Shown here piece after piece: positions 57,337 through 64,000 of a stretch of 64,000 nt of DNA (position 1 is the first letter of the stretch; each line of letters starts with the position of its first letter). The notes under the pieces were generated by a model that was not told the DNA's origin, made no database searches, and was given only the letters and a program-made list of their open reading frames with translations. Origin of the DNA: a candidate division WOR-3 bacterium (GTDB lineage Bacteria; Hydrothermota; Tepidihabitantia; Tepidihabitantales; CAIPLT01). A program made the position numbers and the translations under genes. The DNA is taken from NCBI GenBank assembly GCA_039801505.1, contig JBDRUV010000002.1:248001-312000 (forward strand), given 5' to 3'.

Positions 57337-57374
57337 TTGACAAGGCGGCAAAAATGTTTTATAATTTAATATTT
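57337..57374 (+). promoter_or_regulatory. Promoter of ndk operon
   Basis: TTGACA (57337-57342), 17-nt spacer, TATAAT (57360-57365), 9 nt to ATG 57375. Both boxes match consensus, and a leaderless or near-leaderless start is predicted. It may drive the genes through the window end. Confidence 0.82.
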
Positions 57375-57797
57375 ATGGAAAAGACGCTGCTCGTGATCAA
57401 ACCGGATGCGGTGCGGGCCGGTCATATTGGTGAGATTATCACCGAACTAGAACGGAACAACTTTGAAATCGTAGATATCAAATATACCCGCCTGAGTCGC
57501 GGTCAGGCTCAGCGGTTCTATGCGATTCATAAGGGCAAGCCGTTCTATAAGGATTTAATTGATTTTATCACCTCTGGTCCGGTGGTTGGAATTCTCCTCA
57601 CGGGCGAGAATGTGCAACGGCGGCTCAGAGAGTTTATCGGAGCCACCGATCCCAAACAAGCAGCACCGCATACAATCCGTGCCCGGTTTGGCACGACCAT
57701 TACCCAGAATGCCGTGCATGCTTCAAATCCGGATGAAGATCCGGCCAAAGAGATCAGAATCTTTTTCCCCAAATTCAAGAAAGGACCGCGTAAATGA
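57375..57797 (+). CDS. ndk: Nucleoside-diphosphate kinase
   Basis: 140 residues: EKTLLVIKPDAVRAGHIGEI at the start, the catalytic His in NAVHASNPDE (H115), and GENVQRRLREFIGATDP. It exchanges phosphate between NTPs and NDPs. I choose ATG 57375, because the earlier in-frame start at 57354 overlaps the -10 box. It overlaps the C25 gene start by 4 nt. Confidence 0.95.
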   Translation: MEKTLLVIKPDAVRAGHIGEIITELERNNFEIVDIKYTRLSRGQAQRFYAIHKGKPFYKDLIDFITSGPVVGILLTGENVQRRLREFIGATDPKQAAPHTIRARFGTTITQNAVHASNPDEDPAKEIRIFFPKFKKGPRK

Positions 57798-60700
57798 AAA
57801 AATTATTAATACTCGTCCTTTTAGCCAGCTTAACTTATGCTGGTCGGATCGTGAAAACTTTTTATTATAACCCCCAGGCCTTAAAGATTACCGAGACTGA
57901 CGGTTATCACTTAGTTAGTTATCCGGGACTCACAAGCTATGCCGAAGCGGGTAAGCCCCTTATGCCCTTTGGTATCTATTATGTCTTAGTACCGGCTGAT
58001 GCTGAGATTACGGAGATTAAGATTCTTAATTATCAAGAGATACCAATTGTTGGTAAGTATCTGGTATATCCAGCCCAAGTACCTCGTCCTATCAGTGCTA
58101 AAGAGCCAATTGAGTTTACACCACCAGACCAAACGATCTATCAAGCTCGAGTGTATCCAGAAAAGCTTATTGATTATTCTTCAACCGGTACCAAGAGTGG
58201 TTTTCGGCTTGGTTCATTTGCTCTCTATCCTATAAGATACTATCCTCAAGAAGAGAAGCTTTCTTTAATCACGGAGCTCACAATAGAGATTACTTACCAA
58301 GAGGGTAAAGTCCAGTCTGAGATTTTAACTCCATCCCAGTATGAGATATTTAGCCGCGAGGTTGCCCGGCTGGTGATTAATCCCGAGGATCTTAACCGGT
58401 TTAGTCCACCGCGCACAAGTAAGCAGCAGGAGGTTGATTGTCTGATCATTACCTATGAGGGGTTAGTCAGTAATCTTGAGCCACTACAACTTTGGCACAA
58501 TAAGCGTGGTTATCGCACCGAGATTTTGACCACCGGTTTTATTACTAATAATTATCCGGGTCGCGATCTTCAAGAAAAGATGCGCAATGCGATTATTGAC
58601 TATTATCAGAATCGGGGCTTGAAATGGGCAATCCTGGCCGGCGATAATTCCTATCTCCCAGCCCGACGGGCTCGAGCGGTGGTCAATACCTCACCACCAA
58701 CTACCGGCAATATTCCGTGTGATCTGTATTTTGCTGATCTCCAATGGTCCTGGGATGGCAATAACAATAATGTCTTTGGTGAGGCCGGCTTAGATACCGT
58801 AGACTTTTTCGCCGATATCTATGTCGGGCGGCTATCTGTGGAGAATGCCACTGAGATTAGTAATATCTTAAACAAGTTAACAACCTATGAGAAGAATCCA
58901 GATACCCTATACTGGAACCGGATCTTACTGCCGGCCGCATATCTCTGGGACAATTACAATCATATGCTCTCACAGGACTCGATTAGTAATCTAGTGCCCA
59001 TCGGTTGGACTTATCGCAAGATCAATTTAGGCCAGAACGATGGCTTGCGCTATCTGGTGCGGGACTCAATCAATAACGGATTTGGCTTAGCCCATCTGGT
59101 TGGACATGGTGATGATGTTGGGGTTTATATCTATAATAGTCCGCAGTATTATGTCTCGGATCCTCCGACCCAGACCAACACCAATAAGCTGGTGATTGTC
59201 AACTCGATCGCATGTTATCCGGGAAATTTTGAGTATAGCGACTGTTTAGCTGAGCGCATGCATAACGCCCAAAACTGTGCAGTGGCCGTGATGATGAACT
59301 CGCGCTATGGCTGGGGCACACCACCGGCCTTAGGGCCGTCCGAGCTATTAGATATCTCGTTTTATCAACGGTTTTTTACTGATGATTCCTTACTTATCGG
59401 TCCGGCGTTTAGCACCTCTAAGGATGCCTACCGCTACTTAGCTGAGACGCAACAGGTCTGGCGCTGGTGTGTGTTTGAGTTAAATCTCTTTGGGGATCCG
59501 TTAATGCCGATTTGGAAGGTCCAGCCGCGCCCGGTGAGCTTAAGCTATCCGGATACCATCCGCACCGGACCGCAGAATCTTACAATCACCGTGCACCAGG
59601 CTGGCCAGCCGGTCAGTAATGTGATCGTCGGGATCTATAAGCCCAATGAGGTGTATGCCCGGGCACGCACCAATGCCCAGGGAATTGCCAATCTCTATAT
59701 CAATCCCTTGACTACCGGCACAATTTATTTAACCGCAACTGGTGGGAATATCTTGCCCCGCGAAGAGAGTAGCCAGGTGTATTTAGGCACCCCGGTGCCA
59801 TATTTGAGCCTACGCCGGAGCACGATTAACCGGTTAAATATCGGCACGAGTAATAATTTTAATCTCATTATCCAAAATCTTGGTTCAGCACCGGCCACTA
59901 CGGTTAGTGGCATTTTACGCACCAGTAGCAGCTATATCACAATTCAAGACTCTACAAGTAGCTACGGCACAATTAACGCCGGGGATTCAAGTTTCGGCGA
60001 TGGTTATACCGTCGCCGTTTCAGCCGCAACACCACCCGGCTCTAATATTCCGTTTAATTTGATCCTCAATTCAGCTCAAGGTAGTTGGCAGATTAACTTT
60101 CAGTTGATGGCCGGTATTCCACCCCTGCCGGGTATGATATATGCCGAACATGATACCGGCTACTGTTTATTAGGGGTCACGGCCCAGGGTAGTATTGGCT
60201 ATACCGAGCCAAACCAGAAGCTTGGTCAAGGCTTTCGATATCCGAAGGCCGCGGCCAGTCAATTGTATTATGCCTCGATGCTTTTAGGTAACTCAGCCAG
60301 TTATGTGGTAGACCGGTTCTACGGACAGCCAGCCAGTTCTGTGAATAGTGATTGGCGGGTAACTGAGAGCTTGCGGTTTGTTCTGCCGCCGCTATATGGC
60401 CAGGAGATGCTTTTAGGCTCCTATACCGATGCTAGTCATCCGACACCCCAAGGGCTAAAGGCGACGCAGCGGAGTTTTATGACTAGTGAGCCCGGTTATG
60501 ATGATTTTGTGATCTTAGAGTTTATTTACGAGAATACCTCTCAGAACACCATCACCGGTCTTTATTCTGGGATTATCGCTGACTTTGATATTGTGGCTAG
60601 TCAATCCACCTCGGATATTGCCCGCAGTGATGCGACCCGACGCGCTGTGTATATGCGCCAAGCCTCAAACCAGAACCCGACCGTTGGTGTGAAGTTATTA

Positions 60701-61279
60701 TATCCCGCAAGTTATGCCAACCTTACCGCAATTGACCATGACCGCTATGTCTATCCGGATTCAGCCATGACTGAGAGTATGAAATACCGGATCTTAAACG
60801 GTCAGATTAGTCTAGCCCAGTCAAACCGCACCTACGACTGGTCAGTTGCCGTATCGACCGGTCCTTTCAGTTTAGCGCCCGGGGCGAGCTATCGCGTGGC
60901 CTATGCCATCGTTGGTGGTAGTAGCGAAGCGCAGTTTTTAGCCCATTGTGATTCCGCCCAGGCCTATTATGACCGGCTAGCCGCAATCCTGGAGTCTGAG
61001 AACCATCCTGAAAATATTTGCCAACCGATCAGCTGCCCGACCCGACTGAGCCGGACCCGGGAACTTGAGATTTATTATCAAGACTTGACAAGGGGAAAAT
61101 TCGACATACAATTATACAACATTATGGGACAACTCGTTGCGCATCTTGAGCCAAGGATTGCGAGTCAAGGTCCCGGCGTCCTTAAACTTACCTTGCCGAA
61201 TTTAGCCAGTGGCGTCTACTTTATAAAGATTAAGACCGAAGAGGCAACCTACTTAGGAAAATTACTTTTGATGCGATAA
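57794..61279 (+). CDS. Secreted C25 (gingipain-family) cysteine protease with T9SS-like C-terminal domain
   Basis: 1161 residues; signal MKKLLILVLLASLTYAG. An N-terminal C25 propeptide-like domain (~20-205) precedes the catalytic domain (~210-580): WAILAGDNSYLPARRA, FFADIYVGRLSVENATE, the catalytic His in HLVGHGDD (H438) and Cys in SIACYPGN (C474). Both key residues are intact, unlike the copy at 48190. Several beta domains follow (CARDB-like ~660-780, then a large repeat-free region) and a type IX-like end (IQLYNIMGQLVAHL, LASGVYFIKI). It follows ndk and abuts the next gene (ATG directly after the stop). Confidence 0.88.
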   Translation: MKKLLILVLLASLTYAGRIVKTFYYNPQALKITETDGYHLVSYPGLTSYAEAGKPLMPFGIYYVLVPADAEITEIKILNYQEIPIVGKYLVYPAQVPRPISAKEPIEFTPPDQTIYQARVYPEKLIDYSSTGTKSGFRLGSFALYPIRYYPQEEKLSLITELTIEITYQEGKVQSEILTPSQYEIFSREVARLVINPEDLNRFSPPRTSKQQEVDCLIITYEGLVSNLEPLQLWHNKRGYRTEILTTGFITNNYPGRDLQEKMRNAIIDYYQNRGLKWAILAGDNSYLPARRARAVVNTSPPTTGNIPCDLYFADLQWSWDGNNNNVFGEAGLDTVDFFADIYVGRLSVENATEISNILNKLTTYEKNPDTLYWNRILLPAAYLWDNYNHMLSQDSISNLVPIGWTYRKINLGQNDGLRYLVRDSINNGFGLAHLVGHGDDVGVYIYNSPQYYVSDPPTQTNTNKLVIVNSIACYPGNFEYSDCLAERMHNAQNCAVAVMMNSRYGWGTPPALGPSELLDISFYQRFFTDDSLLIGPAFSTSKDAYRYLAETQQVWRWCVFELNLFGDPLMPIWKVQPRPVSLSYPDTIRTGPQNLTITVHQAGQPVSNVIVGIYKPNEVYARARTNAQGIANLYINPLTTGTIYLTATGGNILPREESSQVYLGTPVPYLSLRRSTINRLNIGTSNNFNLIIQNLGSAPATTVSGILRTSSSYITIQDSTSSYGTINAGDSSFGDGYTVAVSAATPPGSNIPFNLILNSAQGSWQINFQLMAGIPPLPGMIYAEHDTGYCLLGVTAQGSIGYTEPNQKLGQGFRYPKAAASQLYYASMLLGNSASYVVDRFYGQPASSVNSDWRVTESLRFVLPPLYGQEMLLGSYTDASHPTPQGLKATQRSFMTSEPGYDDFVILEFIYENTSQNTITGLYSGIIADFDIVASQSTSDIARSDATRRAVYMRQASNQNPTVGVKLLYPASYANLTAIDHDRYVYPDSAMTESMKYRILNGQISLAQSNRTYDWSVAVSTGPFSLAPGASYRVAYAIVGGSSEAQFLAHCDSAQAYYDRLAAILESENHPENICQPISCPTRLSRTRELEIYYQDLTRGKFDIQLYNIMGQLVAHLEPRIASQGPGVLKLTLPNLASGVYFIKIKTEEATYLGKLLLMR

Positions 61280-62428
61280 ATGGCACGGATAAAGCTTTTA
61301 CTATTCGGCTTCGGGATATTTAGTCTGCTTGGGGCTCAGATACCAAGCCAAGTTAGTGCCTATGATAAGCCTAACGATGCTGGCCGGACGATTGTGATCC
61401 AGTGGCACGATGAGCCTGATAGCACGCGCACTTTTATCGGATATGAGATTTATCGTCGGGCAAGTGATGAGGATACTTTCAGTAATGTTGGCTTGGCCTT
61501 AAGACTTAGCACCACCTATGAAGATGCCAGCACGATTGATCATAAAGACTATTATTACTATGTGCGTGCCGTCTATACCGATACCAGTTTTAACTCCGAA
61601 ATTACCGGACCGGTCCAGTCCTCAGCCCAGTGGTTTCATCGCCGCCGTATCAATGTCTTGGTGTTAGCGATTATTATCTGTGGCCTGGTGATCTGGTATA
61701 TCGAGAAAGCCAAGCGCGGCGAGAAACTTTATGTGCGACGGATCTCCGGTTTAGATGCGATCGATGACGCGGTGGGGCGAGCCACCGAGATGGGGCGGCC
61801 GATTCTTTTCAGCTTTGGACTTGGGGCCATTACGGATGTCGTGACAATTGCCGCCCTATCAATCCTTGGTAAGATTGCCAAGAAATCGGCTGAATATCAG
61901 ACCAAATTGATTGTGCCCAATTATGATCCGATTGTGATGGCCGCAGCCCAGGAGACCGTGAGGCAAGCCTACCTGGAAGCAGGTCGGCCCGATCTCTACA
62001 ACGAGAACAATCTGCCGTTTTTGACTTCAGATCAGTTTGGCTATGCGGCTGGGGTTGATGGTATTATGCTCCGAGAACGACCCGGCGCTGTCTTCTGGCA
62101 GGGCTACTTTTTTGCCGAATCTTTGATCTTAGCTGAGACCGGCCATGCCATCGGAGCAATCCAGATTGCCGGTACTACCGCAATTACGCAGTTGCCATTC
62201 TTTATTGCGGCTTGTGATTATACGCTGATCGGGGAAGAGATGTATGCGGCATCGTGCTACTTAAATCCCGAACCTCAGATGCTCGGCAGCCTAAAAGGCG
62301 AAGATACAGCCAAGATGATAATAACGATCCTATTTGTGATTTTGGTCCTAATTGCCACGATCGGCTACTTTGTGCCCTCGGTAAATAATATCTTTAATAA
62401 AATCTTTGACTGGTTTACCGCACAATGA
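61280..62428 (+). CDS. FnIII-DUF6754 membrane protein
   Basis: 382 residues. Signal-like start MARIKLLLFGFGIFSLLGAQ, an FnIII domain (~20-112, with GYEIYRRASDEDTF and YYYYVRAVY), a membrane segment (~125-143, VLVLAIIICGLVIWYIEKA), a DUF6754-like domain (~155-330, with YVRRISGLDAIDDAVGRATEMGRPI, a conserved-looking phrase, and LPFLTSDQFGYAAGV) and a C-terminal membrane segment (~340-360). Function unknown. It abuts the C25 gene and overlaps the next gene by 4 nt. Confidence 0.7.
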   Translation: MARIKLLLFGFGIFSLLGAQIPSQVSAYDKPNDAGRTIVIQWHDEPDSTRTFIGYEIYRRASDEDTFSNVGLALRLSTTYEDASTIDHKDYYYYVRAVYTDTSFNSEITGPVQSSAQWFHRRRINVLVLAIIICGLVIWYIEKAKRGEKLYVRRISGLDAIDDAVGRATEMGRPILFSFGLGAITDVVTIAALSILGKIAKKSAEYQTKLIVPNYDPIVMAAAQETVRQAYLEAGRPDLYNENNLPFLTSDQFGYAAGVDGIMLRERPGAVFWQGYFFAESLILAETGHAIGAIQIAGTTAITQLPFFIAACDYTLIGEEMYAASCYLNPEPQMLGSLKGEDTAKMIITILFVILVLIATIGYFVPSVNNIFNKIFDWFTAQ

Positions 62429-63126
62429 GAACCCAACTACCACTCCTTATTGTATTTTTAACCGGAGTGTTAGTGATCGTGACTTTCTTTATTCCCCATG
62501 AGCCGTTTGGTAGTCTCGAGCAACGGTTTTTGGTATGGTATTCGATTGTGGCCGGCTTTACCATGCTTTTAGGGCTTGATAGTTTGGTGCGCTATCATCT
62601 GATTAAGATTCGGGATCGTGCTGCCGGTTGGGGCTATAGTTTAGTATTACTTGCCGGACTATTTGCCACGCTAGGATTGGGATTTTACTCTTGGGCCCGC
62701 TATCAGAGTCCGTTTAAGCTCGGCTCGCCGTTTATGTATCTATATACTTATATCATCATTCCCTTACAAGCTACTATGTTTGCTCTATTAGCCTTCTTTA
62801 TCGCTTCAGCGGCCTATCGGGCATTTCGCGCCCGCACCACCGCAGCTACCCTCCTATTAATCTCAGCAGTCTTGGTGATGTTAGGGAGGGTACCGTTGGG
62901 TGGATGGCTCTGGCAGAAGATTATTGCCCTAATTGATCTTGTGCCGGGCACAAATCTTTCCGGCCTTAAGAACTTAGAGATCTTCGCCCGGATTAGTGAT
63001 TGGATTATGGATGTGCCACAGACCGCCGCCAAGCGTGGCATCTATATTGGCATTGTCTTAGGGGGAATTGCGATGTCGCTCCGAATTATTTTAGGAATTG
63101 AACGATCATATACCTCGGGGAGTTAA
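62425..63126 (+). CDS. Six-helix membrane protein of the DUF6754 cluster
   Basis: 233 residues with about six hydrophobic segments: LPLLIVFLTGVLVIVTFFI, WYSIVAGFTMLLGLDSLV, YSLVLLAGLFATLGLGFYSW, YIIIPLQATMFALLAFFIA, TLLLISAVLVMLGRV and YIGIVLGGIAMSLRIILG. No motif I know. It overlaps the preceding gene by 4 nt (ATGA), so it is likely an inner-membrane partner of DUF6754. Confidence 0.65.
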   Translation: MRTQLPLLIVFLTGVLVIVTFFIPHEPFGSLEQRFLVWYSIVAGFTMLLGLDSLVRYHLIKIRDRAAGWGYSLVLLAGLFATLGLGFYSWARYQSPFKLGSPFMYLYTYIIIPLQATMFALLAFFIASAAYRAFRARTTAATLLLISAVLVMLGRVPLGGWLWQKIIALIDLVPGTNLSGLKNLEIFARISDWIMDVPQTAAKRGIYIGIVLGGIAMSLRIILGIERSYTSGS

Positions 63127-63129
63127 GCA

Positions 63130-63951
63130 ATGCGATTCTGGGAACGACTAGGTGCTTTGGATCGAAGAATTATCTATACCTTGGTCGGTCTGGCCGTGAT
63201 TGTGCCCTTACTCTTAAAGATTGTTATGCCGATCCGCGTCTCCGAGCCGGTGCTTTTAGCTTATAAGACCATTGAGTCCTTACCAGCGGGCTCGGTAATT
63301 ATGCTCTCAATTGACTATGATGCAGCATCGGAGCCTGAGCTGCAACCGATGCTGGTTGCGATATTGCGTCATGCCTTTAAGAAGGACCTAAAGGTGATCC
63401 TGACCGGGCATTGGGCCTTGGGGCTACCTTTAGGCGAGATTGCCTTAAATAAGGTGGCTAGCGAGTTTAATAAAAAGTACGGTGAAGATTATATCAATTT
63501 AGGTTATCGGCCGGGTTATTCAGCCTTGATGGTCGGCATTGGTCGCGAGATTCGAGACTTTTTTGCCACTGATTATCGGGGGATAAGTCTTGACAGTTTT
63601 CCATTTATGAAGAAAGTTCACAATTATAACCAGATTGCGGTTTTGGTGGGGTTTGAGGCCGGTGCCACCGGTGACGCCTGGGTGCAGTTTGCCGGTGCTC
63701 GGTTTGGGCAGAAAATTATCCTGGGCGCCACCGGTGTTGTAGCGCCGGATCTGTATCCTTATCTGCAAGCGCGTCAGATCTGTGGTTTAATCTCCGGACT
63801 CCAAGGTGCTGCCGAATACGAAACTTTAGTGAATACAATCGGCACAGCAACTCTGGGCATGCCTACGCAGTCCATCCTCCACGGCTTAATTATTCTCTTT
63901 ATTATTATCGGTAATATCAGTTATTTTATCCTAAGACGGAGAAAAAAATGA
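63130..63951 (+). CDS. Membrane-anchored protein of the DUF6754 cluster
   Basis: 273 residues, with a membrane segment at each end (IIYTLVGLAVIVPLLLKIV near 14-32; LIILFIIIGNISYFIL near the C-terminus) and a ~200-residue soluble middle (SLPAGSVIMLSIDYDAASEPELQPM, GYRPGYSALMVGIGREI, VGFEAGATGDAWVQFAGARFG). GGGAG-like GGGAGTTAAGC precedes ATG. It starts 3 nt after the previous gene and overlaps the next by 4 nt. Not recognised. Confidence 0.65.
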   Translation: MRFWERLGALDRRIIYTLVGLAVIVPLLLKIVMPIRVSEPVLLAYKTIESLPAGSVIMLSIDYDAASEPELQPMLVAILRHAFKKDLKVILTGHWALGLPLGEIALNKVASEFNKKYGEDYINLGYRPGYSALMVGIGREIRDFFATDYRGISLDSFPFMKKVHNYNQIAVLVGFEAGATGDAWVQFAGARFGQKIILGATGVVAPDLYPYLQARQICGLISGLQGAAEYETLVNTIGTATLGMPTQSILHGLIILFIIIGNISYFILRRRKK

Positions 63952-64000
63952 TTGGCACCATTATTGGTACCTGGATTGCCGCTGGGCTAACAATCGCTAT
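63948..64000 (+). CDS. Next gene of the cluster, start only (3' truncated)
   Basis: ATG at 63948 overlaps the preceding TGA (ATGA). The first 17 codons read MIGTIIGTWIAAGLTIA, the start of a membrane segment. The gene runs off the window. Confidence 0.6.
   Translation, partial: MIGTIIGTWIAAGLTIA

Follow-up and report, generated by a model that had tools for sequence, protein, structure and literature searches.

The 64,000-nucleotide stretch of DNA analyzed here (the window) comes from a candidate division WOR-3 bacterium (assembly GCA_039801505.1, contig JBDRUV010000002.1, positions 248,001 to 312,000). At its 3′ end lie four closely spaced genes for membrane proteins, termed A, B, C, and D, the first of which encodes a protein with a DUF6754 domain (PF20539). 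These four genes constitute one inherited cassette. Judged from gene neighborhoods, the cassette is part of a larger system that also includes a three-gene module, S-M-E, in which S is a small protein, M is a GlmL/MutL-type ATPase of the ASKHA (Hsp70/actin) superfamily, and E is a barrel-sandwich-like protein. The genes and domains of the cassette, followed by the two genes that precede it, are as follows.

61280-62428, plus strand: A, exported protein with predicted fibronectin type III (FnIII) domain, transmembrane (TM) segment, cytoplasmic DUF6754 core, and second TM segment (PF20539, E 2.8e-115)
61334-61633, plus strand: FnIII domain of A, residues 19-118, predicted periplasmic (profile, structure match, and charges)
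61622-62368, plus strand: DUF6754 match of A, residues 115-363 (Pfam profile)
62425-63126, plus strand: B, protein of about six TM segments, no Pfam family over cut-off (open reading frame (ORF), hydropathy, and A-B-C-D order)
63130-63951, plus strand: C, TM segment, Rossmann-like core, and TM segment, core predicted extracytoplasmic (AlphaFold, PDB matches, and charges)
63244-63828, plus strand: soluble core of C, residues 39-233 (AlphaFold model and conservation)
63948-64000, plus strand: D, start of a 203-residue multi-TM protein, remainder past the window
57354-57797, plus strand: ndk, nucleoside diphosphate kinase (NDK, E 2.5e-49), heading the co-directional run; neighbor outside the system
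57794-61279, plus strand: C25 peptidase with propeptide and Por_Secre_tail (Peptidase_C25, E 1.1e-50); lineage-specific neighbor

The ORF coordinates confirm the arrangement given in the initial annotation, in which four genes joined by overlaps or a 3-nt gap follow ndk and the C25 protease gene without a break. The whole run ndk-C25-A-B-C-D is uninterrupted on the plus strand, with 4-nt overlaps at ndk/C25, A/B, and C/D, a 3-nt gap at B/C, and a 0-nt gap at C25/A. The fourth gene had been described as cut by the window end, and extension past this point, as was proposed there, completed it: D continues to 203 residues and ends 559 bases past the window (L006:6949-7560; G000:C2:311948-312559). 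The next gene encodes an O6-methylguanine DNA methyltransferase, and because this gene comes directly after D, the cassette here comprises four genes. A 12/12 match to the sigma-70 consensus at 57337-57365, by ndk, and a near-consensus promoter (11/12) within the C25 gene ~170 bases upstream of A are mere hints, since the number of promoter-like sites (11) equals the mean for shuffled sequence (11.3), with no excess. The 12/12 match runs across the position listed as the ndk start (57354). Translation may in fact begin with the Met codon at 57375, in which case the transcript would be nearly leaderless.

Protein A matched DUF6754 with 384.3 bits (gathering cut-off 27) over positions 2-250 of 257. 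Its FnIII domain falls under the Pfam cut-off in the window copy (13 of 25 bits); the A family profile matched titin Fn3 at 1.3e-17, and the predicted structure of A matched FnIII with a Z-score of 13.6 (1.7 Å over 91 residues). Pfam, profile, and structure match thus agree with the order FnIII-TM-DUF6754-TM that had been read for A, to which a signal peptide can be added: a hydrophobic N terminus was present in 102 of 104 A proteins, and a loose lipobox pattern in five. The six helices noted for B were recovered by hydropathy in 93 of 124 homologues, and the two TM segments flanking the soluble core of C in 86 of 118. Single-chain AlphaFold models were confident for both A (pLDDT 93.2) and C (pLDDT 94.2). 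Net charge around the first TM segment of A was +3.8 after the segment versus +0.3, and that at the ends of C was +1.6 and +2.8 versus +0.2 beside the core. On the basis of these positive-inside charges, the FnIII domain and the C core are predicted to lie outside and the DUF6754 core in the cytoplasm.

The C core matched the solved structures 1kjn (Z 10.5, 3.0 Å over 137 residues) and 3cf4_G, a subunit of the CO dehydrogenase complex (Z 9.9, 3.2 Å over 145 residues). Since the best Foldseek value was only 1.7e-3 (none under 1e-3), "Rossmann-like" denotes a fold class here and not a family. A Pfam scan of 99 C members gave scattered weak matches only, and searching solved structures by sequence returned none for C, none for M, and nothing below 0.05 for E. 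Invariant acidic residues cluster after strands in both cores; in A these are E280, E286, D313, E319, and E320, and the invariant residues of the C core are E70, P73, D120, G125, D148, V203, G223, and E231. In the models, the acidic clusters of A and C may resemble ligand-binding sites. Homology between the two cores was considered because their predicted helix and strand order is alike, but was rejected, as hhalign of the trimmed profiles gave an insignificant probability of 0.2%. An all-against-all hhalign comparison of the seven families likewise revealed no relation (best pair A-C, 4.2%), and PADLOC anti-phage models matched none of the seven proteins at E 0.01.

The host genome (1.94 Mb in 57 contigs, 96% complete) contains three A genes, each of which heads a complete A-B-C-D set: L006, in the window, L007, and L008. 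One of the non-window cassettes adjoins a histidine-kinase-type gene (HATPase_c), and the other lies between amidophosphoribosyltransferase-like and peroxiredoxin-like genes (ORFs named by reading). Across 95 A-bearing loci, B, C, and D followed A in order and on the same strand for 122 of 138 A-labelled genes, so the linked order is not chance; median gaps after the stop codon were 10.5, 2, and -1 nt for A-B, B-C, and C-D, respectively. Inspection of the 16 exceptions by reading placed seven at or near a locus end (L027, L028, L036, L072, L095, L097, and L101), two among broken frames (L044 and L081), and five where part or all of B-C-D was undetected (L058, L065, L112, L113, and L114). In the remaining two (L088 and L092), the "A" matches near 19 kb covered only the FnIII part of the profile and were rejected as A genes.

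Co-variation was assessed in 112 cassettes with full-length members, 70 of which come from 31 genomes or loci that hold more than one. Mantel correlations of pairwise distances were 0.795 (A-B), 0.756 (A-C), and 0.757 (A-D), and for each of the three pairs none of 500 within-genome member swaps reached the observed correlation. Conserved order and this cassette-by-cassette co-variation together show that inheritance and divergence act on the four genes jointly. More than one A gene was present in 26 of the 80 loci fetched through A, with tandem sets of three cassettes in L066, L070, L082, and L096. That A to D behave as one membrane complex is supported by their order, overlaps, co-variation, and membrane anchors and by the soluble domains predicted on both faces.

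Among these loci, the cassettes of Poribacteria (L034, L035, L043, L045, L046, L053, L060, L063, L077, and L094) occupy a fixed site, with aroK- and aroB-like genes before and sugar-isomerase- and sulfatase-like genes after (by reading). In L029:3678-5606, the core of the C protein is apparently interrupted by a long insert that is charged and repeat-like, and the ORF at L030:1144-3066 is similarly long. Long C proteins in L029 and L093 and a long A protein in L040 were set aside because they looked like ORF-extension artefacts.

DUF6754 was detected in 140 of 147 genomes of the phylum, with one to seven matches each, and in 0 of 14 controls. A contig search of GTDB confirmed at least 483 relatives, of which the best 80 were kept; record titles include WOR-3, Stahlbacteria, Zixibacteria, Eisenbacteria, Poribacteria, Latescibacteria, Fermentibacteria, Coatesbacteria, TA06, Edwardsbacteria, and others. 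Such titles are not always reliable: the assemblies that hold L022 (titled "Latescibacterota"), L047 ("TA06"), and L058 gave matches with the same contigs and coordinates as phylum genomes G095, G129, and G121, which leaves no more than 46 of the 49 genomes traced from A loci outside the phylum. M and E were each found in 139 of the 147 phylum genomes (in the controls, M gave two weak matches, none over cut-off) and in 48 and 46 of the 49, respectively. For both, a single full-length copy is usual, and additional matches are in many cases longer or fused ORFs; A gives one to seven matches. Within the phylum, A was undetected in G009, G013, G016, G047, G126, G127, and G139; M in G071, G081, G104, G009, G123, G126, G127, and G142; and E in G050, G086, G101, G009, G123, G126, G127, and G142. 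All three were undetected together in G009, G126, and G127.

The module itself came to light in the surroundings of A, where neighbor clustering ranked a MutL-type ATPase (16 loci) and a 375-residue protein (13 loci) at the top and iterated profiles revealed the adjacency of S-M-E to ABCD. The order S-M-E-ABCD-ABCD occurs without intervening genes in L110 and L111, and S-M-E-ABCD in L059, L068, L078, L084, L088, and L092. L065 reads ABCD-S-M-E-ABC, with no D detected in the second set, and in L050 and L080 the order is ABCD-S-M-E-ABCD, M and E being separated by a gap. Among the 80 loci obtained via A alone, M is present in 17, E in 16, S in 10, and at least one of the three in 19. The 75 M-bearing loci are of mixed origin, some retrieved with M, some with A, and some as loci of a divergent M (M′); on the same strand within 3 kb of M, 46 of them have S, 33 have E, and 17 have A. 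M is highly conserved: identity to the first of 14 sequences was 62-79%, and the glycine-rich motifs, which we take to be ASKHA phosphate loops, are invariant.

E gave weak matches in its N-terminal part to RnfC_N (11 of 18 sequences) and NQRA_N (3 of 18), the best at 1.8e-4 and, in members with scores shown, all under the Pfam cut-offs. The single Lys invariant in 17 full-length E proteins, residue 19, lies ahead of the matched stretches, and there is no invariant Cys; a role for E as a lipoyl or biotin carrier or as an iron-sulfur protein is accordingly not indicated. Within 4 kb of E, 13 of 60 E loci contain a family with a DUF5723-like member, and accA lies within 3 kb in 11 of 60 (L133:5246-9427; L138, L182, L185, L188, L190, L191, L193, L194, L196, and L199 for these two neighbors). 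In the host genome, E and an mreB-like gene (by reading) are oriented divergently. Several genomes hold a divergent second pair, M′-E′, as adjacent genes or as a fused ORF of ~930-950 residues; the stretches read at L128:6763-9612 (minus strand), L132:7056-9854 (plus strand), and L129:7161-9949 (plus strand) contain no cassette.

A further association of the module is with glycine cleavage, S-M being frequently the last genes of a gcv operon. The host genome has the order gcvPA-gcvPB-S-M, without a cassette, in which S overlaps gcvPB by 4 nt; the GDC-P and GcvP2_C domains of the gcv genes were confirmed. Among the 75 M-bearing loci, gcvPB lies on the same strand within 3 kb in 31 and gcvPA in 18, and within 4 kb a GcvT-like family was recognized by reading in 10 and a GcvH-like one in 9, GcvH being confirmed for one copy (L068). 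In L162, titled "bacterium", gcvPA-gcvPB-S-M-E-ABCD form one run. The link was seen in the phylum of the window, in Fermentibacteria and Eisenbacteria, and in one Edwardsbacteria record. Two genes downstream of S-M in the host genome (L106:11533-13554, minus strand) look, by reading, like those for a 2-hydroxyacyl-CoA dehydratase activase and the protein with which it pairs.

Taken together, we propose that S-M-E-ABCD is a conserved machine of the inner membrane, powered by a cytoplasmic ATPase, M, that the cassettes share, a reading that we regard as plausible and about evenly poised between right and wrong. In such a machine, B and D would form the membrane body, the FnIII domain and the C core would face the periplasm, and the DUF6754 core would face the cytoplasm. 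With S as its membrane anchor and E as its partner, M would hydrolyze ATP and so drive a conformational cycle of ABCD via the DUF6754 core, by which B and D might move a ligand or expose it to the Rossmann-like core of C. Energization of ABCD by M is what we infer from these associations. Paralogous cassettes would handle different ligands, with one energizing module common to all. The most likely job is transport, or the use of ATP to load or release a bound small molecule, with a probable connection to amino-acid or one-carbon metabolism. Transport would be the weakest step of the proposal; the nearest alternative is that M-E acts on ABCD in the manner of a chaperone or reactivase.

Several observations weigh against this proposal. 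Its activity, ligand, and complex are all putative. The module accompanies A in only the 19 of 80 loci given above (some loci being short), and in the host genome the cassettes, S-M, and E lie at separate loci. No gcv link was seen at the M loci of Zixibacteria, Coatesbacteria, and Poribacteria that were read, so the link may reflect an inherited neighborhood only. S has no predicted TM segment in 8 of 17 sequences and one in 9, which makes its docking role a guess. Of the joint losses, G126 and G127 (94-95% complete) belong to one genus and therefore count as one event, and G009 is 77% complete. M occurs without detected A in four phylum genomes and A without detected M in five, all in at least 140 contigs. 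The known-fold lists for A were filled by FnIII and so cover no fold for the DUF6754 core.

The initial annotation had placed the products in one complex, possibly linked to the export or processing of the C25 protease. The single membrane complex is retained; the link to C25 is not, because just one of the three host cassettes adjoins a C25 gene. Service to C25 or other type IX cargo would agree with the co-directional C25 gene in the window, with the presence of C25 and SprA_N in most cassette-bearing genomes, and with the DUF5723-like family near E. However, a one-sequence phmmer search, which yields a lower bound, detected a C25 domain in the fetched stretch of only two of the 95 A-bearing loci, the window and L022, which belong to the same family; the other 93, including the L007 and L008 stretches, gave no match. 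Neither Pfam nor NCBIfam models placed A to D in a type IX secretion family. C25 was found in 147 of 147 phylum genomes and in 48 of the 49 reached from A loci, and SprA_N in 137 of 147 and 44 of 49 (38 over cut-off), so their co-occurrence with the cassette is non-discriminating. This co-occurrence, which the initial annotation had suggested checking, is broad, and the cluster was thus not found to be widespread apart from C25 and type IX genes. G126 and G127 retain C25 and SprA_N (a weak 32.2 bits summed over pieces in G126 and 44.1 bits in G127, cut-off 27) yet have no DUF6754, M, or E, for which reason an obligate role in C25 or type IX secretion is unsupported. Conversely, G167 and G175, reached from Coatesbacteria loci that carry S-M-E and cassettes and whose records are titled as chromosomes, gave no SprA_N match. 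SprA_N was found in 0 of the 14 controls, which accordingly say nothing on genomes that have type IX secretion and lack the cassette. Synteny, the host's own copies, and the phyletic pattern together speak against an obligate link, which we therefore reject; any role of the cassette in type IX export or processing is highly improbable, and its C25 neighbor in the window seems incidental. The host genome holds at least 12 C25 matches in 1.9 Mb, and another cassette-bearing genome up to 29.

Three other readings compete with an ATP-driven membrane machine. M and E could be a chaperone or reactivase pair for which ABCD is the client, a cofactor of the membrane complex being swapped or loaded. The idea fits the match of M to the MutL family (8.9e-124), its kinship with GlmL and Or-4, and the existence of M′-E′ fusions of ~950 residues, and PMC4682846 describes GlmL as a chaperone for the reactivation of glutamate mutase. 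We nevertheless consider it unlikely, as M falls under the NCBIfam cut-offs for GlmL, Or-4, and the GlmL family and no cofactor motif is known in A to D. It is also doubtful that S, M, and E serve glycine cleavage only, in assembly or repair of the P-protein, while ABCD is independent and shares operons by chance in some phyla. The cassette-free gcvPA-gcvPB-S-M order in the host, the GcvT- and GcvH-like genes in its vicinity and at other loci, and the 61 of 80 A loci that show no S, M, or E would be expected from it, but S-M-E-ABCD operons occur in several phyla, A, M, and E co-occur and go missing together, and M is present in 48 of 49 A-bearing genomes, also where gcv is unlinked. An Rnf/Nqr-type redox ion pump, with E as the NqrA/RnfC-like entry, B and D as membrane subunits, and glycine cleavage feeding NADH, would account for the weak RnfC_N and NQRA_N matches, the gcv genes beside S-M, and the two multi-TM subunits. 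This we judge to be distinctly improbable: the E matches shown are under cut-off, A to D contain no electron-carrier Pfam domain, and iron-sulfur ligands are not indicated, given that no Cys column exceeds 50% in B or D and only one does in E (65%; A and C also have one each, at 96% and 58%).

In agreement with the initial annotation, which listed DUF6754 as a domain of no assigned function, none was found for the cassette. The Pfam model is a single domain without function, a literature search found no paper naming DUF6754 or PF20539, and B-C-D and S-M-E are absent from any description found. The same search found none naming PF13941, none joining glutamate mutase L with glycine cleavage, and none joining WOR-3 with type IX secretion. 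The S-M-E-ABCD and gcv-S-M operons now provide concrete partners for DUF6754 and for MutL-family ATPases, the latter apparently outside the setting of B12-mutase clusters. Given that nearly every genome of a candidate phylum carries the system and that related phyla have it too, it is probably fundamental to the life of these uncultured bacteria.

Of known systems, GlmL/MutL (PF13941) is closest to M, which covers the whole 450-position model and keeps its invariant glycine-rich motifs (414.1 bits for the L092 copy and 431.4 for the host copy, cut-off 27). M differs in its length (~600 residues against 459 model positions), in its frequent neighbors (S, E, gcv genes, and a membrane cassette), and in its score against the GlmL equivalog NF040745, with 230.7 bits for L106:7802-9604 and 217.5 for the L092 copy under a cut-off of 475. 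None of the 12 commonest neighbor families of the 75 M loci was mutase-like by reading, no genome search for GlmE having been made. E recalls the barrel-sandwich domains of NqrA/RnfC and the biotin/lipoyl domains through the weak matches in its N-terminal part, but it lies under cut-off and lacks a suitable invariant Lys or Cys.

Energy-coupling factor (ECF) transporters have one energizing module that serves many substrate subunits. The present system resembles them in its apparently shared ATPase module and in the several paralogous membrane units per genome. It differs in that the ATPase is of the ASKHA and not the ABC type and in its four-gene cassette, FnIII domain, and two soluble cores predicted on opposite faces. 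Testable claims follow, namely that M binds E, that S recruits M, that M acts on the DUF6754 core, and that paralogous cassettes share M. We suggest, tentatively, that S-M-E-ABCD may be a primary membrane machine of a new class, with a GlmL-type ASKHA ATPase energizing transport and with one module shared by up to seven interchangeable cassettes. If so, a member of the Hsp70/actin superfamily would take the place that an ABC, P-type, or rotary ATPase holds as driver.

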